Of a stretch of DNA of 64,000 nucleotides, positions 7,486 to 41,107 are shown one piece after another. How positions within the stretch are numbered: position 1 is the first letter of the stretch; each line of letters opens with the position of its first letter. The notes beneath the pieces were generated by a model. The model ran no database searches. It was not told the DNA's origin and worked only from the letters and a program-made list of their open reading frames with translations. The DNA comes from Pararhodobacter sp. GTDB lineage: Bacteria > Pseudomonadota > Alphaproteobacteria > Rhodobacterales > Rhodobacteraceae. A program made the position numbers and the translations under genes. The stretch lies in NCBI GenBank assembly GCA_020832545.1, contig JAFIEK010000005.1, positions 1 through 64,000 of the forward strand, written 5' to 3'.

Positions 7486-7489
7486 ACCA

Positions 7490-7528: not shown

Positions 7529-7567
7529 AGGTCCCCTGAAGGGTTTGCGCCGCCACGGATCAGGGCG

Positions 7568-21099: not shown

Positions 21100-21108
21100 G
21101 CGAAATTT

Positions 21109-21130: not shown

Positions 21131-21207
21131 GTCAGCTAAACCCGCCTTGCAGGGCTGTCAAGCCCGCGCCCCGCCAACCCGTGTACCCAGCCCGAGCCGC
21201 CCCGCCG

Positions 21208-23827: not shown

Positions 23828-26467
23828 TCACAGCTGGAAGGCGCGCTTGCGGAAGCGCTGGCGGATCAGCTCTGCAAGGGTGTTGATGACGAAGGTCATG
23901 ATGAACAGCGTCAGCGCGGCGAGGAACAAAACCCGGTAGTTGGTGCCGTCCTTCACCGCCTCAGGCAGTTCGATGGCGATGTTGGCGCTGAGCGTGCGCA
24001 GGCCGGAAAAGATGTTCCACTCCATGATCGGCGTGTTGCCTGCGGCCATGACTACGATCATGGTTTCCCCCACTGCGCGGCCAAACCCCATCATCACCGC
24101 CGAGAACACCCCCGACATGGCGGTGGGCAGCACGACAAGGATCGCCGTCTGCCAGGGCGTGGCCCCGCAGGCCAGCGATGCGGCGCGCAGGTGGCCCGGC
24201 ACGGCGTTCAGCGCGTCTTCGGCGAGGGTGTAGATATTGGGGATCACCGCAAAGGCCATCACAAAGCCCACCACCAGCGCGTTGCGTTGCTGATAGCTGT
24301 CGATGAAGCCACCACGAGGGTCATAGCCGATCAGCGTCAGCATTGACGCCAGCGCGAAGGACAGCAGCATCGCTGCCGCCAGCATTGCCAGCCAGCGCAG
24401 CACATCCAGCCGCCCGGCCTGCGCGCGGTCGCGGTCACCGATCAGCGCGCGCCAGTGGTGGCCCAGCGTGCGGCGGAAGGTCCAGCCCAAGGCCAGATAG
24501 CTGACAGGCAGCAGGATCAGGAACATGAAGGGCGTTCCGGTGCCGATGCGGCCGGTGGTCCATGCCTTGAAGTCACCGTAGAACAACAACCACTCAAAGG
24601 GCGTGCCCAGATTGTACGCCACCCATGCGGTGACAATGATTGTCACAGCCATCAGCACGAACTTGGGGAACCCGTCAAACCGCAGTGCCTGCTGAACCGG
24701 AAGCATCTGCCAAAGGAAAGCGCCCAGCATCAGCCCGGTGGGTAGCGCAAAGAACCCCAGCAAGACCGCGCCGATCCATTCCTCGACCAGGGGTGCCAGC
24801 ACCAGCGCGGCAACAAAACCCAGAACCACGGTAGGCAGGCTTTCCATCATTTCCATCATCGGCTTGACGGTGGCGCGCACCCGGCGATCAACGAATTCCG
24901 AGGTATAGATCGCCGCCATCAGCGCGATGGGCGCGGCAAAGAGCATGGCATAGAAGGCTGCCTTGAACGTGCCGAAGACCAGCGGAACCAGCGAATACTT
25001 GGGTTCGGCAAGGTCGGTCCCGGCGGTGGATTGCCAGATGTATTCCGGCCCGCCATAGCCCTCATACCAGATCTGACCAAAGAGCACGCGCAGGGTCACT
25101 TCGGCGTGGTTGGCGCGGAACTGCCAGGCCTCGACCGCGCCGGTTTCGGACATCAACAGGATGCCATCGCCGCGCGGAAAGATCATCGACTGGGCTGGGC
25201 TGGGCTGGCCCTCGGCGGTGCTGCGCGCGAACTCGAACAGCACCTGATCCGAGGTCGAATGCACCAGCCAGACATTGCCATCCATGTCGGTCGCGGCAAA
25301 TGACTTGTCGCGCTGCGCCTCGGTCAGGTCGATCACGGCGGCGGGCATGGCCTGATGGCTGCGCGACTGGACCAGTTCAAACCCGTCGGTGCCACGCGCA
25401 CCCGCGCGCTGAATGCGGAACCAGATGCCTAACGAGCCATCGGACCCGCCCACCACCAGCGATTGCTCGCCGCCAAGAAAGGTCAGCGCGGAAATTGCGA
25501 CCCCGTCGGGCGTGGCGCGCAGGCTTTCGGCCAGTATCGGCGCGTCGATGTTGCGCAGATCATAGCGGTGCAGGCGACCGTCCGAGGTGCCGACGATTGC
25601 CCGGTCGGCCGAACCTGACAGCAGCAGATCGGTGACCTGCACATCCCCCTCAAGCGGCAGCGCCGGCAGTTCAACCGTTGAGGTGCGCACCGTCTCTTCG
25701 CCAGTCATCATGTTGCGCTGTATGCGCGAGCGGCTGACGCGCACGATATTGTCGGCATCGACTGTGGCAAAAGAGATCGTTGGCCGTTCCGCTGTGCCGC
25801 CAGTCCGGTAGTCAACAGCGACGATGGGCCGCTCGGAGATCTGCTCTGGCTCGCCCACCGTAATTTCGGCGGACAGCGTGCGGAAGTCTCCGGTCTGCAC
25901 CTGCGTGAACACCCGCCCGCCCGAGGTGCGGTCACGGTCACTCAGGCGCTGAAGGTCGGACGGCAGTTGCGCGGGCCGGGTGGCGGTTGCGCTGACAGCG
26001 AGCGACGCGAAACGCACGCTGCCATCCTCAAAGCCAACAGCGATCTGGTCGCGCCCGATGGTTCCGGAAACGGCGGTGGCGGTGGCGTCGAACCCCATGT
26101 CCTGCCGGGCGATCTCGGTTCCGGTGGGAATGTGGAAGACCAGCGCCTCCCCGCCATCATCGACACTGATCCCCATGGTCTGGAATTCGTCGCCGTTGAC
26201 CCACAACACCTGCCCTGACACCGGCGCGCGATAAGTTGTCTCGCCGAGCACTTCGCCCGAGGACAGGAGCGGTGACACGACGCGGAACAGAAAGATCATG
26301 ATCCCGAACACGGCAACTATGACCATCAGGCCACCAACGGTGATCACCCCTCGGGCAATCTTTTCGCCCCAGACGACGCTGCGCCGCGTGTCCAGGCTGC
26401 GCAATCGCCTGCGTTCAGAGCGCGCCTCGTTGCTGTCACCGGCGGAAACTTGGGCGGTATCGGTCAT
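23828..26467 (-). CDS. pstC: Phosphate ABC transporter permease with propeller-like insert
   Basis: This 879-residue fusion has TM1 near residues 40-62. A periplasmic region of roughly 400 residues (about 70-470) follows, rich in short repeating beta-strand units such as L-V-V-G-G-S-D-G-S-L-G-I-W, which resemble WD/beta-propeller blades. The C-terminal permease (about 500-870) has the P-T-V-V-L-G-F segment and A-C-G-A-T-P-W-Q-T loop typical of PstC. The canonical protein is about 320 residues. It lies between pstS and pstA, with a terminator-like stem before it. The long form is known in alphaproteobacteria; what the insert binds is not known to me. Confidence 0.92.
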   Translation of the reverse strand: MTDTAQVSAGDSNEARSERRRLRSLDTRRSVVWGEKIARGVITVGGLMVIVAVFGIMIFLFRVVSPLLSSGEVLGETTYRAPVSGQVLWVNGDEFQTMGISVDDGGEALVFHIPTGTEIARQDMGFDATATAVSGTIGRDQIAVGFEDGSVRFASLAVSATATRPAQLPSDLQRLSDRDRTSGGRVFTQVQTGDFRTLSAEITVGEPEQISERPIVAVDYRTGGTAERPTISFATVDADNIVRVSRSRIQRNMMTGEETVRTSTVELPALPLEGDVQVTDLLLSGSADRAIVGTSDGRLHRYDLRNIDAPILAESLRATPDGVAISALTFLGGEQSLVVGGSDGSLGIWFRIQRAGARGTDGFELVQSRSHQAMPAAVIDLTEAQRDKSFAATDMDGNVWLVHSTSDQVLFEFARSTAEGQPSPAQSMIFPRGDGILLMSETGAVEAWQFRANHAEVTLRVLFGQIWYEGYGGPEYIWQSTAGTDLAEPKYSLVPLVFGTFKAAFYAMLFAAPIALMAAIYTSEFVDRRVRATVKPMMEMMESLPTVVLGFVAALVLAPLVEEWIGAVLLGFFALPTGLMLGAFLWQMLPVQQALRFDGFPKFVLMAVTIIVTAWVAYNLGTPFEWLLFYGDFKAWTTGRIGTGTPFMFLILLPVSYLALGWTFRRTLGHHWRALIGDRDRAQAGRLDVLRWLAMLAAAMLLSFALASMLTLIGYDPRGGFIDSYQQRNALVVGFVMAFAVIPNIYTLAEDALNAVPGHLRAASLACGATPWQTAILVVLPTAMSGVFSAVMMGFGRAVGETMIVVMAAGNTPIMEWNIFSGLRTLSANIAIELPEAVKDGTNYRVLFLAALTLFIMTFVINTLAELIRQRFRKRAFQL

Positions 26468-26504
26468 GACGGGCTCGGATTACTGGGGACGTTGAATTCT
26501 GGGC

Positions 26505-26542
26505 AAAAAACCTGCGGGGGCCGGCAACGCCAGCCCCCGCAG
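26505..26542 (-). terminator. Intrinsic terminator/attenuator between pstS and pstC
   Basis: On the minus strand, CTGCGGGGGC pairs with GCCCCCGCAG (plus positions 26533-26542 and 26512-26521) and is followed, after one G, by six Ts (26505-26510). It starts 11 bases after the pstS stop and precedes the pstC start by 38 bases. This is a classic Rho-independent signal. Partial read-through would give more PstS than permease. Confidence 0.9.
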
Positions 26543-26552
26543 TCTGTCCGGA

Positions 26553-27518
26553 TCAGTTCAGGCCGAACTCGGCAAGGTCCTGCTCGGCGATGACGTTGAC
26601 CAGCGGGAAGAAGCCCGCGCGCACCACGTCAGACTGACCTTGCTGGCTGTAGACGTAGCGCACGAATTCGGCGCGCAGCGGCTCCAGCGGCTCGTTCGGG
26701 TTGACGTTCATGTAGATGTAGAGGAACCGCGCGATCGGATAGTTGCCGGTCGCGGCGGCTTCGGCAGTCGGGCCATAGCATTCGCCGTCAGCGCCGCGCA
26801 GCTGCAGCAGGCGCACATCGGCGGTGGCATAGCCGACGCCCGAGTAGCCGATGCCGTTGATGTCAGCGGCAACACCCTGCACCACGGTTGACGAGCCGGG
26901 CTGCTCGCGCACTTCGGGGCTGTAGTCGCCGCCGAACAGCGCGACATCCTTGAAGTAGCCATAGGTGCCCGAGGCCGAGTTGCGGCCATACATGGCGATC
27001 GGGCGGTTGGCCCATTCGCCGGTCAGACCAACCTGGCCCCACGTGGTGATGGCTTCATCGGCGCCGCCAGAGCGGGTGGACGAGAAGATCGCATCAACCT
27101 CTTGCAGCGACAGGCATTCCAGCGGGTTGTCGCGGTGCACAAAGACACCCAGTGCGTCGATGGCACCGCGCATCGCCAGCGGCGGGTATCCGTAGCGGGC
27201 TTCGAACTGCTCGATCTCCGAGCCGCGCATCGGGCGCGACATGGGGCCGAACTGGGCGGTGCCTTCGACCATAGCGGGCGGGGCAGTGCCCGAACCGGCA
27301 CCCTGGATCTGCACGGCGACATTGGGATAGAAGGTGCGGAAACCCTCGGACCAGTAGGTCATCAGGTTGTTCAGCGTGTCCGAGCCGATCGACACCAGGT
27401 TGCCCGACACGCCCGAAGCGGCCTCGTAGGTGGGCAAGTTGGAGTCGATGGCCTGCGCATTCGCAGCGCTCGTCATGGCGACGAAAGCAACCGACATCAG
27501 GGCAGCAGAGCGTTTCAT
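26553..27518 (-). CDS. pstS: Phosphate-binding periplasmic protein
   Basis: This 321-residue high-affinity phosphate receptor has a signal peptide (about residues 1-20, ending A-N-A-Q-A). Phosphate-contact motifs include G-S-D-T-L in S-I-G-S-D-T-L, Q-G-A-G-S-G-T-A-P-P, and R-N-S-A-S-G-T-Y-G. ATG 27518 has AAGGA upstream, and the longer frame to 27560 lacks one. It leads the pstSCAB operon and is preceded by a candidate Pho box at about -98. Confidence 0.95.
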   Translation of the reverse strand: MKRSAALMSVAFVAMTSAANAQAIDSNLPTYEAASGVSGNLVSIGSDTLNNLMTYWSEGFRTFYPNVAVQIQGAGSGTAPPAMVEGTAQFGPMSRPMRGSEIEQFEARYGYPPLAMRGAIDALGVFVHRDNPLECLSLQEVDAIFSSTRSGGADEAITTWGQVGLTGEWANRPIAMYGRNSASGTYGYFKDVALFGGDYSPEVREQPGSSTVVQGVAADINGIGYSGVGYATADVRLLQLRGADGECYGPTAEAAATGNYPIARFLYIYMNVNPNEPLEPLRAEFVRYVYSQQGQSDVVRAGFFPLVNVIAEQDLAEFGLN

Positions 27519-27806
27519 GTCACATCCTTGGTTCTGTTGATCCAGACTCGCCGGCATCATTTCCGGGCGATGTCTGCTGGCTAACCGATTCCAATGACGG
27601 GAATGCCACGGTTTTGTAACAGCCTTGCGACAGTGGCGGGCCCGCCCGGCAGCGACTGTCAGCGCGGTGTCATATGTGCAGCTGGCACGGTGGCCGGACT
27701 TGCCGGTGTGATTTTGCTAGTCGAAATGCCGTTTCGTAATTGTTGACGGGCCCATTGCCCTCGTCTATGCGCAAGTCACCAAGAACTGCCGGGAGGGGGA
27801 GGCGGT
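27519..27806. other. Divergent promoter region of pstS and the acyl-CoA ligase
   Basis: This 288-base interval contains the candidate Pho box for pstS and, at the right, GGGAGGGGGAGG before the ligase start. I see no small gene in it. The remaining sequence shows no clear palindrome. Confidence 0.5.
27616..27633 (-). promoter_or_regulatory. Candidate Pho box upstream of pstS
   Basis: On the minus strand the site reads CTGTCGC, four bases (AAGG), then CTGTTAC. These are two seven-base direct repeats with 11-base periodicity, as PhoB requires. It ends about 97 bases before the pstS start. The match to the CTGTCAT consensus is imperfect. Confidence 0.6.
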
Positions 27807-29404: not shown

Positions 29405-29842
29405 TCAGTCAATGTAGCGGAAGGTGCCCGAGGCGCGGGCAAGGTCCAGCCCGGTGTCATCGCGCACCATGCCCTCGGCGAAATAGATCTTGCGCCCGCC
29501 GCCGACCCGCCGCCCTTCGGCAAGCAGAACCTTGCCCTTGGGCACGGCAAGAAAGTTGACGGTCAGCGACAGTGTCACCGAACGCCGTGGCGGAACATCC
29601 GGGCCCGCATAGCAGCCCGATGCCCCCAGCGCATTGTCCAGAAGCAGCGCATGCACCCCGCCATGTAAGATACCCACCGCATTTGTCAGATCATCGCCGA
29701 TATCCAGCGCGAAGAGCGCGTGCCCGGTGCTCATTTCCAGTTTGCGAAAGCCGATCAGTTGCTGGAATGGGTAATGCGGTGGCAGGTTCTGGCTGAGGTC
29801 AGGGGATGTTGCGGGTGTGTGGGGCGCGGTGGGGTCAGTCAT
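29405..29842 (-). CDS. Hotdog-fold thioesterase (PaaI/YbgC-like)
   Basis: This 145-residue single hotdog domain probably hydrolyses an acyl-CoA. The helix with G-I-L-H-G-G-V-H-A-L-L-L-D carries the expected H-G-G and Asp catalytic residues, and S-V-T-L-S-L-T-V-N-F-L is the typical central strand. Its start (29842) overlaps the end of the upstream IclR gene by 8 bases, so the two are coupled. It is convergent with the CoA ligase at 27807, hinting that both act in one pathway, with the thioesterase releasing stalled CoA esters. Confidence 0.85.
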   Translation of the reverse strand: MTDPTAPHTPATSPDLSQNLPPHYPFQQLIGFRKLEMSTGHALFALDIGDDLTNAVGILHGGVHALLLDNALGASGCYAGPDVPPRRSVTLSLTVNFLAVPKGKVLLAEGRRVGGGRKIYFAEGMVRDDTGLDLARASGTFRYID

Positions 29843-30650
29843 CGGCTTCGGGCCGCAGGGCGAGGCTTTGCGCGGCGCGCAACAGCCGGGGGGCGTAGGT
29901 ATCCATGAGTTGGTCCTGTGGGTTGAGAAAGGCAAAACCGCCGACATTGACGGCATAGACCCGCCCGCCCTGAACCGGGACGACCGGCGCGGCGATGCCG
30001 TTGATCTCTTTGCGCCAGTCGCCGAATGACGTGCAGTAACCATGCGCGGCGAAGTCACTGCGCGCGCGCTCCAGCCCCAGAGCGAGGCGGGCGCGGGCGG
30101 CGTGGTCGGTGGTGGCGCGGCAGGCCTCATCCAGCAGGCTGTCCTGTTCGGTTTTCGGCAGGCCCATCAGGAGCGCCCGCCCGATCGAGGAATGAAACAA
30201 CGGCACCCGCGCGCCAAGGTGAAAGGTCATGGCCACCGAATCCGGCGAGCGATGGGTTACCAGATAGACCATCGACTGCCCGTAGCGTTCGCCCAGGGCG
30301 GCGGCGACATTGGCATTGTCGCCCTCACAGATCGCCGCCAGCTCGATCTCGACGCGCTCGCGCAGCGGCATGGCCGCCAGCACACCATATCCCAGCGTCA
30401 TGACCCCCGCGCCCAGCCGGTAATCGCCGCCCGGCTGGTCCTGCACCAGATAGCCCAGCTTGCACAGGGTATAGGTCAGCCGGGTGACGGTGGGTTTGGG
30501 CAGGCCGGTGCGGGCCGCGAAGATCTGGTTGGTGAGATAGACCTCGTTGCGGCGAAAGCTGCGCAGCAGGCTGAGCCCGCGCGACAGCGCAGTGACGAAC
30601 TTGGGGTCGCTTTCGTCCCCGTCATATTCAGGCAAGACCGGGTCAGTCAT
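29835..30650 (-). CDS. IclR-family regulator
   Basis: This 271-residue protein has an N-terminal winged HTH (L-T-N-Q-I-F-A-A-R-T-G-L-P-K-P-T-V-T-R as the HTH, about residues 38-57) and an IclR effector domain. The effector domain has G-R-A-L-L-M-G-L and I-N-G-I-A-A-P-V-V segments. It is the first gene of a unit with the hotdog thioesterase. A perfect palindrome, GTTTCGAAAC, lies about 50 bases upstream and may be its own operator. The ligand is unknown; an acyl or aromatic acid fits the company it keeps. Confidence 0.88.
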   Translation of the reverse strand: MTDPVLPEYDGDESDPKFVTALSRGLSLLRSFRRNEVYLTNQIFAARTGLPKPTVTRLTYTLCKLGYLVQDQPGGDYRLGAGVMTLGYGVLAAMPLRERVEIELAAICEGDNANVAAALGERYGQSMVYLVTHRSPDSVAMTFHLGARVPLFHSSIGRALLMGLPKTEQDSLLDEACRATTDHAARARLALGLERARSDFAAHGYCTSFGDWRKEINGIAAPVVPVQGGRVYAVNVGGFAFLNPQDQLMDTYAPRLLRAAQSLALRPEADD

Positions 30651-30775: not shown

Positions 30776-31783
30776 TCAGCCATGCGGCGCACGCGGGCGG
30801 ATGGTGACATTGTCGCGCCCCACCCAGCCGCCGCAATGGTTGCAGGCAAAGCGCCCGCGCACCAGATGGCCGCAATCATGAACCAGCATCTCAGGCGGGG
30901 GTTGGCCCGCGTTGCACCAGCGATCACCCCAGGTGCTGATGCTGACGAGTAGCGGATAAAACGGCTCTGCACGCGGCAGGGTGGCATAGACCAGCCGCCG
31001 CCCTTGCTGTTCTTCCTGCACCAGCCCCAGCTGGCGCAGCTTTTCCAGCCGCCCGCGCACCACCGACACCCCCAGCGCCAGATCCTGCGCCAGCGCCTGA
31101 ATATGCGACGGGCCCTGAAACAGCCGCCACAGGATTTCGTTGCACGCGATATCCCCGACCAGCGAGGCCGCCACCAGCCCCTCGCCATCCCCGGACGCGG
31201 TGATCGCCGCATCATTGCGCCGCGACAATCGCCCGCGCGGCTCAAGGTCAAACTGTGGGGGATCGGCGGGGACCACCTGCACGCTGTCGCTGGTGATCAA
31301 ACCCTTGCAATGGGTGCAGCGAAAGCTGGCCGACAGCACCTTGCCGCAGGTGGTGTGCACAATATCGAATGGCAGGACATCGGCATCGCCGGGGTTCGCC
31401 TGATGCCACAGCCAGACCGAATACATGGCCTCCTGCAGGTCAAAGGCCTTGGCGGTGGGCACATATTCCAGCGTTGCATGGCCGGGGCTGACGGGGCGGC
31501 GATACATCATTGCCTCACGGCACAGATGCGTCAGGCGCAGCGACAGAGTTTGCCGGGGGATGTTCAGTTCGCGCTGGAAGTGGCTGAACCGGCGCGTGCC
31601 ATTGAACGCCTCTTTCAGGATCAGCATGGTCCATGGATCGCCCAGCACATTGAGCGCGCGCCTGAGCGCGGTTGCGGGGGCCTGTTTGGGCTGTGGTTCC
31701 GGGTTCTGGAGCACGGGCGCATTCCTTTGCCCCGGCACAATGCATGCGGCGCGGCGAAAATCAACCGCCGCGCGCGCCCGCAT
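30776..31783 (-). CDS. Tandem HxlR-like winged-helix regulator with two Cys clusters
   Basis: This 335-residue protein is built from two similar halves. Each half has an HxlR-type winged helix (about residues 38-130 and 205-290; the first contains V-L-G-D-P-W-T-M-L-I-L). Each winged helix is followed by a Cys cluster with identical C-x9-C-x2-C spacing (Cys146/156/159 and Cys304/314/317). HxlR proteins are usually about 110-150 residues and act as dimers, so this is a covalent pseudo-dimer with a possible zinc or redox site. Its ATG overlaps the stop of the oxygenase gene (TGATG), so it is co-translated with it and probably regulates it. Confidence 0.78.
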   Translation of the reverse strand: MRARAAVDFRRAACIVPGQRNAPVLQNPEPQPKQAPATALRRALNVLGDPWTMLILKEAFNGTRRFSHFQRELNIPRQTLSLRLTHLCREAMMYRRPVSPGHATLEYVPTAKAFDLQEAMYSVWLWHQANPGDADVLPFDIVHTTCGKVLSASFRCTHCKGLITSDSVQVVPADPPQFDLEPRGRLSRRNDAAITASGDGEGLVAASLVGDIACNEILWRLFQGPSHIQALAQDLALGVSVVRGRLEKLRQLGLVQEEQQGRRLVYATLPRAEPFYPLLVSISTWGDRWCNAGQPPPEMLVHDCGHLVRGRFACNHCGGWVGRDNVTIRPRAPHG

Positions 31784-33315
31784 CAGGATGGCCAGATCTG
31801 CTTGCCGTCGACCCAGGTGGTGTGAAACCCGATCGAGATGCGGCGCGGGATCTTTACCTTGGCGAGGGGTTTGGTGATGTCTTCGGCGTCAAAGATCAGG
31901 CAGGCCGAGGACCAGTCGTTGCTGTCAGTAACAAACATCACCGGATAGGCCTTGCCCTCGCCGGTCGCCGCATCGGCATTGGCTGACGGCGCAACCGGCG
32001 CCTCTGATCCATAGACCCCTTCGCCATAATCGTAGCGCTGGGTGGTGCCGGTCTCCAGGTCATAGCGCATCAGCCCGTTGAAGGTCTGGCAGCGCCCCTC
32101 AAGCGAGCCTTCCTGCGCAACCGGGATGATCTGGTTGAACGAATAGCGTGATTTGCGGCCCATGTAGTTGGCGTTGACGGTGGGGAACTCGGTGTTGGCG
32201 TCATCCAGCATCCCCTCGCTGACAGCACCCGTGCGGGTGTTGAAAGACCAGCGATACATCACATGGCTGCGGCGGCGATAAGCCATCATCGACGCCAGAT
32301 GCTGGTCGCGTGCGTCCTTCACCGGCATCGGGTCTTCCTGACGGCAGCCATGCATATGCACCCACTCACCCTCTTCCCAGGCGTTCGAGATATGCAGGAC
32401 GTAGCAGGGTTCGCATTCAAACCACTGCACCTTGTCCGAGCGCCCGAACCGGTCGATCAGGCCAAAGCGTGCGGGCTGATCGCGGTGAAAGCCCATCACC
32501 CGGCGGCCGTGTTTCTTCAGGATGTCCACGTCATGGTAGAAGGGCAGGTCATGCAGGATGGCGTAATTCTCGGTCAGGCCCATGTCATGGGGCGAGCGTG
32601 GGCCTTGCAGATCAATCTCGATATCGAACTTGAGCGCACCATCAGGTCCGGCCATGCCATAGCTCATGTAGGGCGGTTCGTCCTGATAATTGAAAAAGAA
32701 CAGATCGCCGGTCCAGGGGTCGGTCTTGGAATGGGCGGAAACCGAATGGTGCAGCTTGCCGCCCAGCGTTTCGCGGCCCGTGGTTTCCAGCGTCAGCGGG
32801 TCCACCTTGTAGGGGTCGCCCGACATATACCACAGCGACAAAAGGCTGCCGTTGTGAAAGATGATATCGGTGTTGGACACATCCTTGATCGGCGAGCCGG
32901 GCAGGCGGAAATCATAGGGACCGGCCAGCCCCGGCCAGATCGCCTTGCCTGCCTTGTCCTCGACAATGAAGGCGCCGTTGCGCAGCCATTTCTGCTTGAA
33001 CCATGCCTTGCCGCCGCGAAAGTAGATCGCCCGCAGCATCGCATCGCCGTCATAGTAGTGATACTTGCTGTTCACCGGCTCAAAGCGCTGCGACGGCCCG
33101 TTCATCACATAGGCGCCGCACAGATCGGCCGGGATCTCGCCCTCAACCTCAAGGTCCTCGGCCTCGTATTCCACATTTGTGGGGGCAAAGGCGCCGTGCA
33201 GATAGGGGTGATCATACCCCCATATCCAGTCCGGGGCGTCAGGTGGCGGCGTGCCGTCGGGCGCGAACTGGCGCACGTTGGCGGCGGTAACGGCAAGCGG
33301 CGTGTCATGGGACAT
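31783..33315 (-). CDS. Carotenoid-oxygenase-family (lignostilbene dioxygenase-like) enzyme
   Basis: This 510-residue member of the RPE65/carotenoid cleavage family is a seven-blade propeller with Fe(II) held by four His. Candidate ligands are in S-V-S-A-H-S-K, R-S-P-H-D-M-G, Y-V-L-H-I-S-N-A-W and the C-terminal I-G-F-H-T-T-W. These enzymes cleave alkene double bonds to two aldehydes. Bacterial relatives outside carotenoid pathways act on lignostilbene, isoeugenol or resveratrol. There are no carotenoid genes nearby. The CoA ligase, thiolase and TRAP genes across the divergent promoter favour catabolism of a phenylpropanoid- or stilbene-like compound. No signal peptide is seen. Confidence 0.88.
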   Translation of the reverse strand: MSHDTPLAVTAANVRQFAPDGTPPPDAPDWIWGYDHPYLHGAFAPTNVEYEAEDLEVEGEIPADLCGAYVMNGPSQRFEPVNSKYHYYDGDAMLRAIYFRGGKAWFKQKWLRNGAFIVEDKAGKAIWPGLAGPYDFRLPGSPIKDVSNTDIIFHNGSLLSLWYMSGDPYKVDPLTLETTGRETLGGKLHHSVSAHSKTDPWTGDLFFFNYQDEPPYMSYGMAGPDGALKFDIEIDLQGPRSPHDMGLTENYAILHDLPFYHDVDILKKHGRRVMGFHRDQPARFGLIDRFGRSDKVQWFECEPCYVLHISNAWEEGEWVHMHGCRQEDPMPVKDARDQHLASMMAYRRRSHVMYRWSFNTRTGAVSEGMLDDANTEFPTVNANYMGRKSRYSFNQIIPVAQEGSLEGRCQTFNGLMRYDLETGTTQRYDYGEGVYGSEAPVAPSANADAATGEGKAYPVMFVTDSNDWSSACLIFDAEDITKPLAKVKIPRRISIGFHTTWVDGKQIWPS

Positions 33316-33343
33316 TGGGACCCTCCGGCGGAAACGTTCTTTA

Positions 33344-33352
33344 ACTAGACCA
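33344..33352. promoter_or_regulatory. Operator half of a divergent pair, oxygenase side
   Basis: ACTAGACCA lies just downstream of a good minus-strand promoter (-35 TTGACA at 33382-33377, -10 GATATT at 33358-33353, 18-base spacing) and 29 bases before the oxygenase start. Its exact reverse complement is at 33534-33542, next to the divergent gene. Confidence 0.55.
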
Positions 33353-33533
33353 AATATCGACTCTTTGACCGGGCCATGTCAAGCGAATACTCCGGTCAGG
33401 GCCGGATTCCCGCCACCCCAGGACAGAGAAGCAGCGTTTTTCACAAGAAAATCAAGTATTCCGCAAAAAAGCAGTTCCGATAGACAAAACTTGGTTTTGA
33501 AAAGCATCATTCTGCTTGATTGAGGTCGCAATC

Positions 33534-33542
33534 TGGTCTAGT
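33534..33542. promoter_or_regulatory. Operator half of a divergent pair, hydrolase side
   Basis: TGGTCTAGT is the exact reverse complement of 33344-33352. It abuts or overlaps a plausible -10 (TAGAAT, 33542-33547, with TTGAGG at 33520-33525) and ends 24 bases before the hydrolase start. The two copies sit symmetrically at the two divergent genes. Confidence 0.55.
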
Positions 33543-33566
33543 AGAATACTTAAAGAGGGAGGACCC

Positions 33567-34286
33567 ATGCAACCTATCGTCTGCATACCCGGCTTGCTGT
33601 GTACCGGCGCGGTCTTTGACGGCTTTGCCAGCGCCCTGCCGAACGGCACGGCGGCGCAGGTTGTGGAGCTGCCTGATTCGGACGATTTCGCTGCCCTCGC
33701 CGCACAGATCGCCCGCCAGCTGCCGGATGAATGCGTGCTGGTCGGCATGTCGATGGGCAGCTATCTGGCGCTTGCTGTGCAGCAGCTGCGGCCACAGGCG
33801 GTGGCGGGGATGGTGCTGATTGGTGCCACGGCCCGCGCCGATACGCCCGAGGCCGCCGAAAACCGGTTCAAAACCGTAAAGTGGGCGCGCAAGGTCGGGA
33901 TGCCGGCGCTGGCGGCCAGTCTGGCTGATTTCCTGTTGGGTGCGGAATCGCGCGACATTGTGGCGTTGCGCAACCAGATCACCGACATGGCGGTGGCCAC
34001 GGGGGGCGATGTATCCGCTCGCCACCAGACCGCGCTGGCCACCCGGCCAGACCAAAGCGCTGCGCTGCCCGGTATCTCTTGCCCGGTGCTGGTGATCACC
34101 GGCAGCGAAGACCGCGTAACTCCGCCTGCTTCGGGCGAAGAGCTGGCGCTTTGCGTTCAGAACGGCCGGCACGTCGTGCTTCAGGGAGCGGGCCATCTGC
34201 CGCTGCTGGAAGCGCCGCGACAGGTGGCCAGCCTTGTGACACGTTTCCTTGCCGAACTGCCCAGAAATGAAAGCCTGCCCGCATGA
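33567..34286 (+). CDS. Alpha/beta hydrolase
   Basis: This 239-residue alpha/beta-fold hydrolase is probably an esterase or a C-C bond hydrolase. The nucleophile elbow is G-M-S-M-G-S-Y, the acid is in I-T-G-S-E-D-R-V-T, and the catalytic His is in Q-G-A-G-H-L-P-L-L-E. The N-terminal C-I-P-G-L-L-C-T-G stretch supplies the oxyanion loop. ATG 33567 follows GAGGGAGGA. It opens a plus-strand operon running through the monooxygenase-like, ligase and thiolase genes and probably the TRAP genes. Its ATGA overlaps with the next gene show tight coupling. Confidence 0.86.
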   Translation: MQPIVCIPGLLCTGAVFDGFASALPNGTAAQVVELPDSDDFAALAAQIARQLPDECVLVGMSMGSYLALAVQQLRPQAVAGMVLIGATARADTPEAAENRFKTVKWARKVGMPALAASLADFLLGAESRDIVALRNQITDMAVATGGDVSARHQTALATRPDQSAALPGISCPVLVITGSEDRVTPPASGEELALCVQNGRHVVLQGAGHLPLLEAPRQVASLVTRFLAELPRNESLPA

Positions 34287-35242
34287 CCCCCGCCGACCGC
34301 CTTCGCCAGCTTCGACTGCCTGCCTTTGCCGCGCCGATGTTCCTTGTCTCATCGCCGGAACTGGTGATCGCCAGCAGCCGCGCCGGGATTGTCGGCAGCT
34401 TTCCCGCCCCCAACCTGCGCACCAGCGCCGAACTGGGCGAATGGATGCGCCAGATCCGCGCGGGGCTGGCCGAACCCGCCACCACCCCCTGGCCCACAGC
34501 CCCCTGGGCGCTGAACCTTGTCACCCATTCCACCAGCCTGCGCCTGCCCACCGATCTGGAGCAGGTGGCCGAGCATCAGCCGCCCATCGTCATCACTGCC
34601 CTTGGCAGCCCCAAGCCGGTCATTCCCACAGTGCATGGCTATGGCGGGCTGGTCTTTGCCGATGTCATCTCTGAGGATCTGGCACGCAAGGCCGCCGATG
34701 CGGGCGTTGACGGGCTGGTGCTGGTCTGCTCTGGCGCGGGTGGCCATACGGGCGAGTTGAGCCCCTTGGTGTTTGTCGAACGGGTGCGGCGCTTCTTTGA
34801 CGGCTATATCGCGCTGGCAGGCGCCATCAACACCGGCGAGGCGATGCTTGCGGCACAGGTGCTGGGCGCGGATTTTGCCTATCTGGGCACGGCTTTCATT
34901 CCCGCGCTGGAAAGCCACGCCAGCGCTGATTACCGCCAGATGCTGATCGACTGCACCGCGCGCGATCTGATGGTGACACGCGCTTTCACCGGGGCGCGTG
35001 CCAGCATGCTGGTGCCCTCGATGCAGCGGATGGGGCTGGACCCCGCCGAGATCGAATTCAAGGTGGCGAAGTTCAATTTCACCGGACGGCAGAATGAAAA
35101 GGTGAAGCCCTGGACCGGGATCTGGGGCGCCGGGCAGGGGGTGGGCCGTGTCGAACAGGCTGAACCCGCCGCCGATATCATTGACCGTCTGGCGCGTGAA
35201 TACGACGCTGCGCGCCGCCGTACTGCGGAGTTGTGCGCATGA
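34283..35242 (+). CDS. Nitronate monooxygenase-like FMN protein (2-nitropropane dioxygenase family)
   Basis: This 319-residue FMN-binding TIM barrel shows the N-terminal L-P-A-F-A-A-P-M-F-L-V-S substrate/flavin segment. It also shows the conserved G-A-G-G-H-T-G with the catalytic His, and G-A-D-F-A-Y-L-G-T-A-F near the phosphate site. The family includes nitronate oxidases, FabK-type enoyl reductases and many proteins of unknown use. Inside a CoA-ligase/thiolase operon, a role on an unsaturated acyl-CoA is as plausible as nitronate oxidation. It overlaps the hydrolase and the ligase genes by ATGA. Confidence 0.85.
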   Translation: MTPADRLRQLRLPAFAAPMFLVSSPELVIASSRAGIVGSFPAPNLRTSAELGEWMRQIRAGLAEPATTPWPTAPWALNLVTHSTSLRLPTDLEQVAEHQPPIVITALGSPKPVIPTVHGYGGLVFADVISEDLARKAADAGVDGLVLVCSGAGGHTGELSPLVFVERVRRFFDGYIALAGAINTGEAMLAAQVLGADFAYLGTAFIPALESHASADYRQMLIDCTARDLMVTRAFTGARASMLVPSMQRMGLDPAEIEFKVAKFNFTGRQNEKVKPWTGIWGAGQGVGRVEQAEPAADIIDRLAREYDAARRRTAELCA

Positions 35243-36942
35243 TCCCCTTTCCCGCCGATCAGGCTGCGCGCTACCGGGCCGAGGGGCATTGGGGCGACCT
35301 GTCACTGCCGCAGATGTTCGCGCAGACCTGCGCCCGAGTGCCTGAGCGTCCGGGACTGATCGACGCGCCCAACCGCACCGAGGTGTTCGAGGGGCCGCCC
35401 CGCCGCCTGACCTATGCGCAGATGGATGCCGAGGTCGCGCGCTACGCCGCGATCTTGCAGGCGCAGGGGTTGGGCAAGGGATCGCTGATTGCCACGCAAC
35501 TGCCCAATATCGCCGAGATGATCCTGATCTATCTGGCGGTTTCCCGGATCGGTGCGGTGCTCAGTCCCATTTCCATGGCCTACCGCGCGGCAGAGTTGCG
35601 CGGGCTGGCGCAGGTGGCAAAGTTCGATGCCTATCTGTCTGTCGGATCATTGCGCGGTCAGCCCTTTTATGCCGAGCGGCTTGCGGCGCTGCCTGCGCAG
35701 GTGTTGCGGCTGGGGCTGGGCAGCGGCCTGCCTGAAGGTGTCACGCGGATTGACACGCTGGTGCCCGACCGCGCCGCCACGCCGGTGACGATTGATGCGG
35801 ATGACCTGTTCGCCGTGTTCTGGACCTCTGGCACCGAGGGCGTGCCCAAGGCCGTGCCCAAGACGCATAACAACATGATGGCCAGTTCGCTGGGGGCTTG
35901 GCGGATTCTGGGCCTGCCGGACGGGGCAAACATTCTGGCGCCGTTTCCCTTTGTGAATGCCGCTGCCATGGGCGGGCTGATGATGTGCTGGATGCGCACG
36001 GCCGGTGCGCTGATTCTGCATCACCCGTTTGAGATTGGCACCTTTCTGCGCCAGCTTGTCGACGAGGATATCGCCTATACGATGGTCGCGCCCACGGTGC
36101 TGGTCTATCTGCGCGACAAGGCCAGTGACCCCGCACTGCAACCCGCGCTGCACAGGCTGCGGGCCATCGGCACCGGCTCAGCCCCGCCTGACCCAGAGGT
36201 GTTTGCCTATTTTCAGGACCAGTTCGCCATTCCGGTGCTCAATTTCTTTGGCTCGAACGAGGGCGCGCAGCTTTGCTCCGGCCCTGACCGCGTGGCTGAC
36301 CCGCGCCGCCGCGCGCGGTTCTTTCCGCGCGACGGCGATGAACATTGGCCGGATGGTGACGGCCTGCGCACCGCCAATGGCGGCACGTTCAAGCTGGTTG
36401 ATCCGGCCTCGGGCGCGGTGGTCAGCGCGGCGGGCGCACTGGGAGAGATGTATATCCGGGGCCCGTCCCTGCTTCCCGGCTATTACTCGACCGCGGGCTA
36501 TGACCGGTCCAAATTCGACCCGGATGGCTTTTTCGCCACGGCCGATCTGTTCCAGATCTCCGATTGCGGGCAGTTCATCTGCTTCCACGCCCGCGCGCGC
36601 GAGTTGATCGTGCGCGGCGGCATGAAAATATCGCCGGTTGAGCTGGATGGCTTTCTGGCCCCCCTGCCCGGCGTGCGTGAACTGGCAGTCGCCCCCTACG
36701 CCGATCCGCAGATGGGTGAAAAGGTCTGTCTGTTTGCGGTGATGGCGCCGGGCGAAAGCCTGACACTGGCCGATGTGCTGGCCTTTTGCGACCATCACGG
36801 GCTGGCCAAGTTCAAATGGCCGGAACGGCTGATCCTGTGTGATACCCTGCCCCGCACCCCCTTGGCCAAGCTGGACCGCAAGGCGCTGGCGCGCCGTCTG
36901 GCCGATGAGGCCGCCTTTCAACAAGGAGCCGAACATGCCTGA
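35239..36942 (+). CDS. Acyl-CoA synthetase (AMP-forming), cyclohexanecarboxylate/aryl type
   Basis: This is a 567-residue ANL ligase. The P-loop is F-W-T-S-G-T-E-G-V-P-K-A; the usual T-T is T-E. The adenylate motif is unusual, with F-G-S-N-E-G in place of Y-G-x-T-E. F-A-T-A-D-L replaces the standard T-G-D, and R-E-L-I-V-R-G-G-M-K-I-S-P and the Lys in P-L-A-K-L-D-R-K follow. These variants resemble cyclohexanecarboxylate- or dihydroxybenzoate-activating ligases more than fatty-acid ligases. It probably activates the acid imported by the TRAP system or released by the hydrolase. It overlaps the upstream gene by ATGA and the thiolase by 8 bases. Confidence 0.87.
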   Translation: MIPFPADQAARYRAEGHWGDLSLPQMFAQTCARVPERPGLIDAPNRTEVFEGPPRRLTYAQMDAEVARYAAILQAQGLGKGSLIATQLPNIAEMILIYLAVSRIGAVLSPISMAYRAAELRGLAQVAKFDAYLSVGSLRGQPFYAERLAALPAQVLRLGLGSGLPEGVTRIDTLVPDRAATPVTIDADDLFAVFWTSGTEGVPKAVPKTHNNMMASSLGAWRILGLPDGANILAPFPFVNAAAMGGLMMCWMRTAGALILHHPFEIGTFLRQLVDEDIAYTMVAPTVLVYLRDKASDPALQPALHRLRAIGTGSAPPDPEVFAYFQDQFAIPVLNFFGSNEGAQLCSGPDRVADPRRRARFFPRDGDEHWPDGDGLRTANGGTFKLVDPASGAVVSAAGALGEMYIRGPSLLPGYYSTAGYDRSKFDPDGFFATADLFQISDCGQFICFHARARELIVRGGMKISPVELDGFLAPLPGVRELAVAPYADPQMGEKVCLFAVMAPGESLTLADVLAFCDHHGLAKFKWPERLILCDTLPRTPLAKLDRKALARRLADEAAFQQGAEHA

Positions 36943-38173
36943 ACCCGTTTATATTCTTGGCGGCGCCCAGACCGATTTCGCCCGCAACTGGCACCGCGAG
37001 GGGCTGGGAATTGACGCGATGATGGCTGAGGCGCTTGAGGCCGGGTTGCAATCCACCAGCCTCGAACACCGCGACATTCAAAGCGTCCATGTCGGCAATT
37101 TCACGGCAGAGCTGTTTTGCGGGCAGGGGCAGTTGGGCGGTATGGTCGCCTCGATGCACCCGGATCTGTCTGGCGTGGCCACGTCGCGGCATGAGGCCGC
37201 CTGTGCCTCGGGTTCAATGGCGATCCTTGCCGCCAGTGCCGAGATCGAGGCCGGGCGCTATGATCTGGTCTGCGCGCTGGGTGTGGAATATATGCGCAAC
37301 GTGCCGGGCCAGCGGGCCGCCGAATATCTGGGTGCCGCCGCCTGGGCCGGGCGTGAGTGGCAGGATGCCACCTATCTCTGGCCCGCCGCGTTCAATGACC
37401 TGATCAGCGCCTATTCCGAGAAGTACGGAACCGTTGATTATTCCCATCTGGGCGAAATCGCGCGCATCAACTATGAAAACGCGCGGCGCAACCCCAACGC
37501 CCAGTCGCGCAAATGGCAGTTCAACGAGCGCTCTTTCACCGAAGATGATGAGGCCAACCCGGTGATCGAGGGCCGGGTGCGGCGCAATGATTGCGGGCAG
37601 GTGACGGATGGCGCTGCGGTCGTCTTTCTGGCCTCGCGCCGCTTTGCCGAGGCCTATGTCAAAAAGCGCGGGCTGAAACTGTCAGACCTTGCCCGGATCG
37701 AAGGCTGGGGCCACCGTACCGCGCCGATGATGCTGCGCGAAAAGCTGAACGAGAGCCGCAATTCGCGCTACGTGTTGCCGCAGGTGCATCAGACGATCCG
37801 CGAGAGCTTTGCGCGGGCAGGTATCGACAGCCCGTTCCAGTTGGACGCTATCGAAACGCATGACTGCTTCGCCATGACTGAATACGCCGCGATTGACAGC
37901 TACGGCATCACCGAACCGGGCGAAAGCTGGAAGGCGGTGGAAGATGGCACAATCGCTGCAAACGGGCGGCTGCCGGTCAACCCCTCGGGCGGGCTGATCG
38001 GGCTGGGCCATCCGGTGGGCGCCACTGGCGTGCGGATGATGCTGGATGGCTACCGTCAGGTCACTGGGCAGGCGCAGGATTGTCAGGTTGAAGGCGCGCG
38101 GCGCCTGGGCCTTTTGAACATCGGCGGATCGACGACCACCATTGCCAGCTTTGTCGTCGGACAGGCGGCATGA
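36935..38173 (+). CDS. Thiolase-family protein (SCP2/acetyl-CoA acetyltransferase type)
   Basis: This 412-residue thiolase-fold protein has the nucleophilic Cys in H-E-A-A-C-A-S-G-S, a His in E-T-H-D-C-F (the N-E-A-F equivalent of SCP2-type thiolases), and N-P-S-G-G-L-I-G-L-G-H-P-V-G-A-T-G. It lacks the second C-x-G catalytic Cys of classic thiolases near the C-terminus, which instead reads L-N-I-G-G-S. This is usual in the SCP2 group. It would split a beta-ketoacyl-CoA formed from the ligase product. AAGGAG precedes ATG 36935, and the ligase overlaps by 8 bases. No acyl-CoA dehydrogenase or hydratase is in the operon, so a complete beta-oxidation route is not encoded here. Confidence 0.88.
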   Translation: MPEPVYILGGAQTDFARNWHREGLGIDAMMAEALEAGLQSTSLEHRDIQSVHVGNFTAELFCGQGQLGGMVASMHPDLSGVATSRHEAACASGSMAILAASAEIEAGRYDLVCALGVEYMRNVPGQRAAEYLGAAAWAGREWQDATYLWPAAFNDLISAYSEKYGTVDYSHLGEIARINYENARRNPNAQSRKWQFNERSFTEDDEANPVIEGRVRRNDCGQVTDGAAVVFLASRRFAEAYVKKRGLKLSDLARIEGWGHRTAPMMLREKLNESRNSRYVLPQVHQTIRESFARAGIDSPFQLDAIETHDCFAMTEYAAIDSYGITEPGESWKAVEDGTIAANGRLPVNPSGGLIGLGHPVGATGVRMMLDGYRQVTGQAQDCQVEGARRLGLLNIGGSTTTIASFVVGQAA

Positions 38174-38233: not shown

Positions 38234-39232
38234 ATGTTGAATCGGACCCTTACCGGCGTCATTGCCGGCCTTGCGCTTGGAGCGACCGCCGGGGCGGCGC
38301 AGGCGCGCGAACTGGCCTTCGCGGTTTTCATCCCCGCCGCGTCACCCACCGTGCAGGCGATCTATGAACCATGGGTAGAATGGTTCAACGAAGAGGCCGC
38401 CGAGGATGGCGTCTCTATCCGGCTTTTTGCCGGTGGCACGCTGGGCCGCAACCCGCTGGCGCAGGCTGAAATGGTGCGTGACGGCGTGGCCGATATCACG
38501 CTGACCGTGCCTTCCTATACGCCCGGCGTTTACCCCGATTATGACATCTTCGAGCTGCCGGGCTTTGCCAATGACACGCGCGAAGGTTCATTGGCGGCGC
38601 TGGAGATGCAGCGCGAAGGGCTGTTGCGCGGATATGAAGATTTTCATGTCGTGGCGATGTATTCCTCAGGTAGTTACATGATCCATTCTCGTAATCCCGT
38701 GGCGTCGGTCGATGACATCTCTGGTCAGCGGTTGCGTGTGGCGGGCCAGATCCAGACCGCTGTCGTTGAGGCGCTTGGCGGCGTGCCGCAAAACCTGGGC
38801 GCGGGCGAGATGGCTGAAAGCATCGACCGGGGGCTGATCGACGGGGCGATGACCGATGCCTCGGTCGCGCGCACCTTCCGTGTGACCGATGTCGCCAACC
38901 ACCATTATGACGCCAATCTGGGTGTGCTGGTCTTTGCCATCGTGATGAACCGCGCCACCTATGAGGGACTGCCGGAAGGGGTGAAAGACCTGCTGGCGCA
39001 GAGCGGCGATTTCATTGTCGCGCGCCAGATCGAAAGCTATGGCCCGGCCATCGCGCGCAATCTGGCGGAATGGGAGGCTGACGCCGACCGCACTGTCACC
39101 TATCCCGATGACGCCGACCGCGCCCGCATCATGGAAGCGGTGCAACCGGTGATCGATCAGGTATCCGCTGCCGCCTCGGATGGTCTGATCGAGGCCTATC
39201 AGGCCAAGCTGGAAGACATCCGCAACCGCTGA
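38234..39232 (+). CDS. TRAP transporter solute-binding protein (DctP family), system 2
   Basis: This 332-residue periplasmic receptor has a signal peptide (hydrophobic core about residues 8-22, cleavage after A-Q-A). DctP-type features are R-L-F-A-G-G-T-L-G and the carboxylate-binding region G-Q-R-L-R-V-A-G. The sequence differs clearly from the system 1 receptor, so the ligand is different. GGGAGGACACC precedes the ATG. It is 60 bases after the thiolase and followed by a UACG-loop hairpin. It may bring in the acid activated by the ligase at 35239. Confidence 0.91.
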   Translation: MLNRTLTGVIAGLALGATAGAAQARELAFAVFIPAASPTVQAIYEPWVEWFNEEAAEDGVSIRLFAGGTLGRNPLAQAEMVRDGVADITLTVPSYTPGVYPDYDIFELPGFANDTREGSLAALEMQREGLLRGYEDFHVVAMYSSGSYMIHSRNPVASVDDISGQRLRVAGQIQTAVVEALGGVPQNLGAGEMAESIDRGLIDGAMTDASVARTFRVTDVANHHYDANLGVLVFAIVMNRATYEGLPEGVKDLLAQSGDFIVARQIESYGPAIARNLAEWEADADRTVTYPDDADRARIMEAVQPVIDQVSAAASDGLIEAYQAKLEDIRNR

Positions 39233-39238
39233 TGCTTC

Positions 39239-39260
39239 GGGGCCGGATACGTCCGGCCCC
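39239..39260 (+). promoter_or_regulatory. Intercistronic hairpin after TRAP receptor gene 2
   Basis: GGGGCCGGA and TCCGGCCCC are perfect 9-base arms closed by a TACG tetraloop, 6 bases after the receptor stop and 29 bases before the small-permease start. Such a compact stem is very stable. It probably protects the receptor mRNA 3-prime end; there is no T-run. Confidence 0.7.
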
Positions 39261-39289
39261 ACCAGACCCTAACCGAGGAGCGCAGCACC

Positions 39290-39790
39290 GTGGCACGCCT
39301 TGAACACTACATGCTTCTCGTCACCCGCGCGGCGGCTGTTCTGGGGGTTTTCTTTCTGTTGATGGTCGCGCTTTTGTCGGTGGCCGATATCATCGTGCGC
39401 GAAATTCAGGGCCGTCCGATCCGGGGCGCCAATGACATCGCGCGGCTGCTGACCATCATCGTTATCGCCGCCTGTTTTCCCGCCGGTCTGCTGGAGCGCC
39501 GCCAGATCAAGGTGGCACTTCTGGGCAGTATCCTGCCGCCGCTGGTCACCCGCGCATTGGAAGCGATGGGTGCGGCACTGACGCTCCTGATGTTCAGCTT
39601 CATCGCCTATTACGTCACGCTTTACGCCCAGCGGGTCACCCTGAGCGCCGAGTATACGATGGTTCTGAACATTCCCATCGCGCCGTGGTGGTGGGCCGCG
39701 AGCGTCTGTTTCTGGGCCTGCATTCCCGCACAGGCCTTCGTGATCGTTGCCGAGGCCCTCGGCCAGCCCCCCAGCCAGATCGAGGACTGA
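39290..39790 (+). CDS. TRAP transporter small permease (DctQ family), system 2
   Basis: This 166-residue protein has four predicted TM helices (about residues 12-34, 44-62, 84-106 and 126-150). The conserved segment after TM1 reads V-A-D-I-I-V-R-E, followed by G-A-N-D-I-A-R-L. The start is GTG 39290 with GAGGAG upstream. It ends 3 bases before the large permease gene. Confidence 0.88.
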   Translation: MARLEHYMLLVTRAAAVLGVFFLLMVALLSVADIIVREIQGRPIRGANDIARLLTIIVIAACFPAGLLERRQIKVALLGSILPPLVTRALEAMGAALTLLMFSFIAYYVTLYAQRVTLSAEYTMVLNIPIAPWWWAASVCFWACIPAQAFVIVAEALGQPPSQIED

Positions 39791-39793
39791 ACC

Positions 39794-41107
39794 ATGGATC
39801 CGCATATCATCGGGCTGATCGGCATGCTGCTGATGCTGGCCATGATCTTTCTGCATGTGCCGATTGGCGTGGCGATGGGGCTGGCGGGGGTATTCACCTT
39901 TGGCATGATCCGGGGCAATTTCGGCCCGGCGCTGACGCTTTTCGGCACCGAAACCGTGGGCAAGGTGGCCTCGATGGAACTGGCGGTGGTGCCGCTGTTC
40001 CTGCTGATGGGGGCATTCGCCACGGTTGGCGGGTTATCGTCTGACCTCTATCGCATCGCCTATGCTCTGGTCGGGCATATGCGCGGCGGGCTGGCGGTGG
40101 CGACGATCGGCGGTTGCGCAGGGTTTGGCGCGGTCTGTGGCTCGTCCATCGCCACCGCCACCACCATGACCCGTGTCGCCATGCCCGAGATGAACAAGCG
40201 CAACTATGCCCCGCGTCTGTCCACCGGCTCTATCGCCGCCGGCGGCACGCTGGGCATGCTGATCCCGCCGTCGATCATTCTGGTGCTCTACGGTGTGCTG
40301 ACCGAGCAGTTTGTGAAAACCCTCTTTGTTGCCGCACTGATCCCGGCGGTGCTGGCGGTGGTGCTGTATGTCGTCACCATCTGGGTTCTGGTGCGCCGCA
40401 ACCCTGAACTGGGCCCGCCGGGCGAGGAACTGCCATGGGTTGAGGTGGGGCGCGCGCTGATGAATGGCTGGGCGGCCATCGTCTTGATGATCACGGTCAC
40501 CGGCGGCATTTATGCGGGCATCTTCTCGGTCAACGAATCTGCGGCGGTGGGGGCGGTGCTGGCCTTTGTGATCGCGCTTCTGCGCGGGCGGCTGACGATG
40601 AAAAGCTTCTGGCTGGCGTTGCGCGACACGGCCGCCACCACCTCGATGATCTATCTGATGATCATCGGCGCCTCGATCTTCACCTATGCCGTCACCCTGT
40701 CGGGTCTGCCAGAGATGATCGTCAACGGTATCCGCGACACCGGCCTGCCGGGCATCTGGGTCGTGGTGTTGTTGATGCTGATGTATATCGTGCTGGGGTC
40801 GATCTTTGACACCATTTCATCCATGGTCATCACCATCCCCTTCGTCTTTCCGCTGATCATCGGCTACGGGTTTGACCCCATCTGGTGGGGCATTCTGACG
40901 GTTATGGTGATCGAGATCGGCATGGTCACGCCGCCGGTGGGGATGAATGTCTTTGTCATGAAAGCCATGCTGCCAAAGACAACGCTACGCACCATCTATG
41001 CGGGTGTCATGCCGTTTCTGCTGGCTGATGTGGTGCGGCTGGCGCTGGTGATCGCCTTTCCGGCGCTGACCCTTGCGCTGGTTGATTTCTTCGCCCTGCC
41101 CAGGTAG
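39794..41107 (+). CDS. TRAP transporter large permease (DctM family), system 2
   Basis: This 437-residue protein has about 12 TM helices. It shows V-P-I-G-V-A-M-G-L-A-G at the N-terminus, G-F-G-A-V-C-G-S-S-I-A-T-A-T-T-M, G-G-T-L-G-M-L-I-P-P-S, G-I-F-S-V-N-E-S-A-A-V-G-A, and G-M-V-T-P-P-V-G-M-N near the end. These are the DctM sodium-coupled transport motifs. It ends the plus-strand catabolic operon and converges with the peptide ABC transporter after a 19-base gap that has no recognisable terminator. Confidence 0.93.
   Translation: MDPHIIGLIGMLLMLAMIFLHVPIGVAMGLAGVFTFGMIRGNFGPALTLFGTETVGKVASMELAVVPLFLLMGAFATVGGLSSDLYRIAYALVGHMRGGLAVATIGGCAGFGAVCGSSIATATTMTRVAMPEMNKRNYAPRLSTGSIAAGGTLGMLIPPSIILVLYGVLTEQFVKTLFVAALIPAVLAVVLYVVTIWVLVRRNPELGPPGEELPWVEVGRALMNGWAAIVLMITVTGGIYAGIFSVNESAAVGAVLAFVIALLRGRLTMKSFWLALRDTAATTSMIYLMIIGASIFTYAVTLSGLPEMIVNGIRDTGLPGIWVVVLLMLMYIVLGSIFDTISSMVITIPFVFPLIIGYGFDPIWWGILTVMVIEIGMVTPPVGMNVFVMKAMLPKTTLRTIYAGVMPFLLADVVRLALVIAFPALTLALVDFFALPR

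Follow-up and report, generated by a model that had tools for sequence, protein, structure and literature searches.

In this study, we identified a regulator in which two complete HxlR units are joined in one chain, encoded next to an RPE65/carotenoid-oxygenase family enzyme in a window of 64,000 nucleotides (the whole stretch of DNA that was analysed). Its domain make-up, conservation and genomic partnership, as well as the occurrence of cluster-specific sites at repressor-like positions, were established by computation. From these features we infer, with a probability of roughly 0.55, that the tandem HxlR is a covalent pseudo-dimer that would carry structural zinc and repress both the oxygenase operon and a divergent operon at GGTCTAG sites. 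The interest of the finding lies in the occurrence of a double HxlR in nature, in its link to RPE65-type clusters and in the asymmetric, cluster-specific sites.

Two HxlR units in one chain

The tandem HxlR gene lies at 30776..31783 on the minus strand, which gives 335 residues when counted from an ATG that overlaps the stop codon of the oxygenase gene. The Pfam HxlR model (PF01638) matched the protein in two stretches with 62.5 bits (gathering cut-off 20.8), and a profile built from 38 single-domain units only (singles-only profile) found the halves separately, at residues 42-169 (N-half, i-E 2.6e-33) and 207-326 (C-half, i-E 4.1e-17). The winged helix of the N-half (residues 39-129; 31397..31669, minus strand) is placed by Pfam, AlphaFold2 and the singles-only profile, and that of the C-half (residues 201-289; 30917..31183, minus strand) by AlphaFold2, Foldseek and the same profile. 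In the AlphaFold2 model, which was computed from six sequences, each half is made of a winged helix followed by a three-strand beta tail. The preliminary description of this frame as a double HxlR protein with a winged helix in each half was confirmed by Pfam, the singles-only profile and AlphaFold2, and this includes the second half, for which both the predicted fold and the profile match point to a winged helix.

The tandem model is only moderate overall (mean pLDDT 67, pTM 0.64). Block means of pLDDT were 49-78 in the winged helix and 85-90 in the tail of the N-half; for the C-half they were mostly 80-92 in the winged helix (45 and 68 in the first and last blocks) and 73-88 in the tail. When modelled alone, the N-half reached a mean pLDDT of 47.6, worse than within the tandem, which is a weak hint that the two halves may pack together or support each other, although the shallow six-sequence alignment may by itself explain the poor N-half model.

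The C-half is more diverged from single HxlR proteins than the N-half (48 versus 101 bits with the singles-only profile), and the Trp of the GDxW motif is missing from it. These features would suit a protein in which only the N-half reads DNA and the C-half serves as a dimerisation or ligand domain. We consider this unlikely, as the predicted recognition helix of the C-half is still fairly conserved in eight sequences of clade A (mean top-residue share 0.71, versus 0.82 in the N-half) and both the fold and the ribbon are kept. Clade A comprises the orthologues found in the genus, in Hoeflea, in Pseudooceanicola and in two Rhizobiaceae metagenome-assembled genomes.

With regard to the start codon, the overlapping ATG was present in none of the nine other clade A loci that show both genes; in two of them (L115 and L117) an in-frame GTG overlaps the oxygenase stop codon by four bases. 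A GTG at 31714 (minus strand, 312 residues), which is preceded by AAAGGA and lies 68 nt past the oxygenase stop codon, fits the orthologues better and looks like the better start. Co-transcription of the oxygenase and the tandem HxlR is likely. Overlap-coupled translation of the two genes was rejected because the overlapping ATG is absent from the other nine loci, so that, of the earlier statement that the regulator is co-translated with the oxygenase, the same-strand arrangement holds and the exact co-translation is doubtful.

Several known systems resemble the tandem HxlR in part. The winged-helix fold of both halves is shared with HxlR/DUF24 regulators (PF01638), such as HxlR (7bze), YodB (5hs7), HypR (4a5m) and QsrR (4hqe), from which the tandem differs by its two units per chain, by the absence of the sensing Cys from both halves and by an extra ribbon tail. 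The best Foldseek and sequence matches were PA1607 (2f2e) and PA1374 (4gcv) of Pseudomonas aeruginosa; PA1607 aligns over 135 residues with model residues 37-173, tail region included, but both proteins are single units and, where the profile alignment extends into the tail, have Ser at the position of the first tail Cys. Single HxlR proteins with a His-Cys-Cys-Cys tail, which are widespread in Alphaproteobacteria, contain the same unit and tail as the tandem halves, but with one unit per chain. An engineered sensor, HxlR-cpYFP-HxlR, also holds two HxlR units in one chain and is still responsive, but, according to the available text of its report, it is man-made and consists of two identical HxlR copies joined by a fluorescent protein (PMC7835342). 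No natural fused HxlR was found among the papers listed by keyword searches of the literature (HxlR/DUF24, carotenoid oxygenase and lignostilbene regulators). If our reading is true, nature already provides, in the tandem HxlR, an HxlR dimer in a single chain whose operator is asymmetric.

Cysteine tails and the sensing cysteine

The two C-x9-C-x2-C clusters noted previously, with Cys at 146/156/159 and 304/314/317, were found exactly at these positions. An invariant His that had been overlooked (H143 and H302) precedes each cluster, which extends the pattern to H-x(1-2)-C-x9-C-x2-C. Alignment and the AlphaFold2 model place these residues in two zinc-ribbon-like tails, one in the N-half (residues 139-172 with H143, C146, C156 and C159; 31268..31369, minus strand) and one in the C-half (residues 298-330 with H302, C304, C314 and C317; 30794..30892, minus strand). 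By sequence and prediction, both halves have the two putative metal knuckles on a beta-hairpin that are typical of a zinc ribbon, with H-x(1-2)-C and C-x2-C at predicted strand ends. It is most likely that each tail holds a structural zinc, as judged from this pattern. No Pfam zinc-finger profile scored above its cut-off on the tandem HxlR (the best, zf-C2HC_3, had an E-value of 0.048 and 14 bits versus 24), and the search for a solved structure with the Cys tail returned none, as the best stretches of 21 chains (E <=0.001) reach no further than position 112 of the 132-position profile and stop short of C-x2-C. If true, our reading would also name a common zinc-ribbon-like HxlR tail that is matched here by no Pfam model above cut-off.

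The Cys residues are retained by nearly all tandem homologs. Both clusters were in frame in 17 of the 18 tandem proteins compared, with L013 as the exception; in this locus (L013/L120, genome G017) the gene loses its frame near the 3' end and the second cluster lies in another frame, so that it is either a broken gene or a sequencing error. Among deduplicated units, N-halves carried the full H-x(1-2)-C-x9-C-x2-C pattern in 52 of 57 cases and C-halves in 54 of 57. The full tail was also found in 54 of 89 single HxlR units, the others having no Cys (15), some Cys (10) or too short a tail (10); in a small number of halves and singles, C-x2-C is all that is left. Because many single HxlR proteins have it too, the tail is a common feature of one HxlR branch, and the clusters are not special to the fusion. 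For the most part the tail is either complete or missing altogether, as expected of a metal site. The proposal that the clusters mark a new metal or redox sensor is not supported, given the identical tail of the singles, and the tail looks structural. As a separate case, the tandem HxlR of L108 (genome G222, 1638-2792, minus strand) lacks the full His-Cys-Cys-Cys pattern in both halves and adjoins a thiolase and a TRAP transporter gene.

Enzymes of the RPE65/carotenoid-oxygenase family make aldehydes or ketones, and a regulator that senses redox state, metals or aldehydes through its Cys clusters, as had been suggested for this protein, would suit such a neighbor. In addition, HxlR of Bacillus subtilis detects formaldehyde through a link formed between Cys11 and Lys13; the same study (PMC7835342) describes Cys11 as a conserved residue that is reported to react with electrophiles or oxidants in other proteins of the family. 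However, the equivalent of Cys11 in helix 1, which was found in 86 of 89 singles (all tail types), is kept in only 15 of 57 tandem N-halves and 7 of 57 C-halves; it is absent from both halves of the tandem HxlR studied here and from every readable half of clades A, B and C (the N-half of L009 is cut). Moreover, the tail Cys residues and a conserved His together form a ribbon pattern that is identical in many single HxlR proteins. Aldehyde or redox sensing by the Cys clusters was set back on both counts and is very unlikely. Outside these clades, some tandems (e.g., L101, L104 and L106) retain the sensing Cys in both halves, and RPE65-linked tandems of other families (L142, L143, L144, L146, L148, L149 and L150) have it in the N-half only. 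Loss of the sensing Cys in tandems was stepwise and not universal, because some of them keep it in one or both halves.

Gene clusters and the partnership with RPE65 oxygenases

The oxygenase gene (31783..33315, minus strand; PF03055, 372.6 bits) is the first gene of a same-strand group. Its nearest solved relatives are carotenoid and lignostilbene dioxygenases, and it fits no NCBIfam equivalog (best 232.9 bits versus a cut-off of 675). The tandem HxlR is followed by the second regulator of the group, an IclR-type protein (29835..30650, minus strand; Pfam and profile search), and by a 4HBT thioesterase-like frame (29405..30130, minus strand; Pfam). The latter open frame overlaps the IclR gene, and its real start is probably near 29835. 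On the plus strand, the divergent genes encode an alpha/beta hydrolase (33567..34286; Pfam), whose ATG at 33567 behind GAGGGAGGA was read from the sequence, a nitronate-monooxygenase-like (NMO) flavoprotein (34283..35242; PF03060), an AMP-dependent acyl-CoA ligase (35233..36942; PF00501), a thiolase (36839..38173; PF22691) whose real start is probably inside the frame, and the TRAP transporter components DctP, DctQ and DctM (38234..41104; Pfam). It is most likely that the putatively regulated genes form a CoA-linked oxygenase catabolic cluster. Elsewhere in the window, a frame at 20608-21135 (minus strand) matched the HxlR unit profile weakly, as a winged helix (E 2e-4), and large permease and phosphate-binding-like frames at 23828-27560 (minus strand), assigned by eye, probably make up a pst operon for phosphate uptake.

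In the 10 clade A loci in which both sides are visible, the oxygenase gene is followed by the tandem HxlR gene and then by the IclR gene; in L112 a thiolase-like gene is inserted between the tandem HxlR and IclR. The divergent hydrolase and NMO, with the ligase nearby, were found in 10 of 10 loci, and IclR belongs to the same group in all 11, including the cut-off L129. The small gene after IclR has a 4HBT match in the window, and its counterpart in L112 had no Pfam match at 1e-5.

Two more tandem clades (B and C) are present in the genus, and the genome that contains the window has one clade C member, so that its two tandem HxlRs and two RPE65 genes form two clustered pairs. The second tandem and its own RPE65 oxygenase are located on contig C58 (L005:1302-3005 and 7158-8186) together with genes for an aldehyde dehydrogenase, an NMO, a thiolase and a branched-chain-type ABC transporter; the start of the contig, next to this tandem, contains a transposase-like frame that was recognized by eye. 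In general, clade C clusters contain one or two RPE65 genes (one in this genome), aldehyde dehydrogenase, NMO, thiolases, a branched-chain-type ABC transporter and a ligase. In seven of them (L225, L226, L227, L228, L229, L230 and L231) two RPE65 genes are placed directly in tandem.

Beyond the genus, tandem HxlRs recur in the genomes drawn from the family, the class and the phylum (Pseudomonadota) and on plasmids. Among 337 matching plasmid records, 22 had a place that covered at least 80% of the protein, with identity below 30% among the best matches. Six of these plasmid tandems were opened (Sinorhizobium, Agrobacterium, Bradyrhizobium, Aminobacter and two Cupriavidus), and all six are annotated merely as helix-turn-helix or winged helix-turn-helix proteins. 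The two Cupriavidus plasmids carry a carotenoid oxygenase, a hydrolase, an adenylate-forming enzyme, a nitronate monooxygenase, the tandem HxlR and a thiolase together. A second catabolic setting was observed on Rhizobiales plasmids (L130, L132, L133 and L134), in which tandem HxlRs have xanthine-dehydrogenase-type and CoxG genes as neighbors, joined by branched-chain ABC genes on three of these four plasmids.

Among the matches listed, RPE65 was found in the fetched stretch (3.4 to 18 kb; short for L020 and at contig ends) of 14 of 24 tandem genomes from the random draws, a count that leaves out same-genus and plasmid tandems, versus none of 43 single-HxlR loci (Fisher p 2e-8, with relatedness ignored and several loci being close relatives). 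The oxygenase profile behind this contrast was made from hits in the same data, tandem loci included, and tandems and singles were both chosen among the matches listed, the singles being the best-scoring full-length units; the 43 contain four loci originally fetched as tandem candidates (L109, L110, L140 and L154), of which L140, whose protein sequence is masked in part, might encode a tandem, and L111 was dropped as it had no usable unit. RPE65 was likewise found in none of seven more single loci (G248, G320, G525, G526, G788, G816 and G888), which are long frames with one listed match that each proved to be one HxlR unit. The association is not a background effect, because RPE65 occurs in just 35 of 193 class genomes. 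Within the genus, RPE65 and tandem HxlR are present in the same 9 of 18 genomes and the other nine have neither, five of these nine being less than 90% complete. Six further family genomes contained no RPE65 and only partial HxlR matches. In the reverse direction, only 1 of 30 RPE65 loci had an HxlR unit, with flanks of about 1.5 kb that are too short for most neighbors. On the other hand, the partnership is not universal, since RPE65 was missing from the fetched stretch in 10 of the 24 tandem genomes and the four tandems opened on Rhizobiales plasmids adjoin xanthine-dehydrogenase-type genes.

Neighboring paralogs fuse easily, and the protein might be viewed as an otherwise ordinary HxlR in which a fusion arose by chance and is neutral. 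This is highly improbable, as the two halves, together with both ribbons in nearly every case, have been preserved in different families and classes, and the tandems are strongly tied to one enzyme family. Of the suggestion that the protein represents a distinct regulator family, the part that survives is a real, recurrent and oxygenase-linked double HxlR, and the part that does not is the Cys-cluster sensor. We tentatively propose a natural single-chain pseudo-heterodimer family, with two diverged HxlR units held by zinc-ribbon tails and with an asymmetric operator, which may have lost the Cys sensor in this branch and spread together with RPE65-type clusters across Pseudomonadota. If true, the tandem HxlR would provide a handle on the control of bacterial carotenoid/stilbene-type oxygenase clusters and a marker for finding them. 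A single duplication origin was considered and set aside, as the tree of half-units (90 rows, 130 columns) has low resolution, with 41 of its 86 inner branches open. Inside clades A, B and C the halves cluster according to their position in the chain, and a single fusion is indistinguishable from several in this tree.

Promoter sites in the divergent region

The region between the oxygenase and hydrolase genes contains two GGTCTAG sites, whose promoters were assigned by consensus only. The site GGTCTAGTTAA (33341..33351, minus strand) lies just past the -10 element of the oxygenase promoter (TTGACA from 33382, GATATT ending at 33353), and GGTCTAGTAGA (33535..33545, plus strand) overlaps the -10 element of the divergent hydrolase promoter (TTGAGG from 33520, TAGAAT ending at 33547). 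Relative to the -10 elements, these are repressor-like positions. The divergent region is mostly unalignable between orthologs, yet GGTCTAG was found in 10 of 10 orthologous loci, whereas in 200 shuffled sets no 7-mer was common to more than six of ten. The exact motif is present in nine of ten loci on the oxygenase side (AGTCTAG in L039) and in nine of ten on the hydrolase side (GGTCTTG in L040), and L120 has a third copy. The 21 sites share an A/T-rich flank, GGTCTAG and then mostly [T/A]-W-A-W, with no two-fold symmetry outside the CTAG core. In the 4.37-Mb genome, GGTCTAGTWRA has two copies, both in the divergent region, versus 16 for the reversed control.

It might be argued that these sites belong to the neighboring IclR, with the tandem HxlR working at other places or playing a minor part; as IclR is present in all 11 clade A loci, conservation does not tell which of the two owns the sites. 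IclR dimers usually read symmetric sites, and the divergent region offers one in the palindrome CAAAACTTGGTTTTG (CAAAAC-N3-GTTTTG; 33485..33499, no strand assigned), about 62 bases before the estimated hydrolase start. This second site suits IclR dimers and is a candidate IclR site, although L040, a locus with IclR, has not retained it. In addition, none of nine clade C loci has an IclR above 90 bits (the only other type of regulator searched), yet a conserved motif occupies the same promoter position there. We therefore regard ownership by IclR as somewhat unlikely.

In the reading that we prefer, the two complete HxlR units of the chain, each a winged helix with a four-ligand His-Cys-Cys-Cys zinc-ribbon tail, would act as a built-in, diverged dimer. 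This dimer may sit on the asymmetric GGTCTAG-A/T-rich sites at the transcription start and the -10 region, and would thereby repress its own RPE65-type oxygenase operon and the divergent hydrolase/NMO/CoA-ligase/thiolase operon, with IclR possibly acting at the palindrome. Release from DNA would follow the binding of a pathway metabolite, the ligand being a guess.

For clades B and C and other clusters, GTCTAG was tried as a common site and rejected, as the matches were scattered and lacked the paired promoter arrangement. Seven clade C oxygenase promoters have a conserved TTGACA and, with some variation, a GTTCAATAACGTAAGT-like sequence after the -10 element; judged by sequence, this is not clearly the same motif as that of clade A. 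The clade C pattern, which was designed from those clade C sequences, matches once in the genome that contains the window, at the clade C oxygenase.
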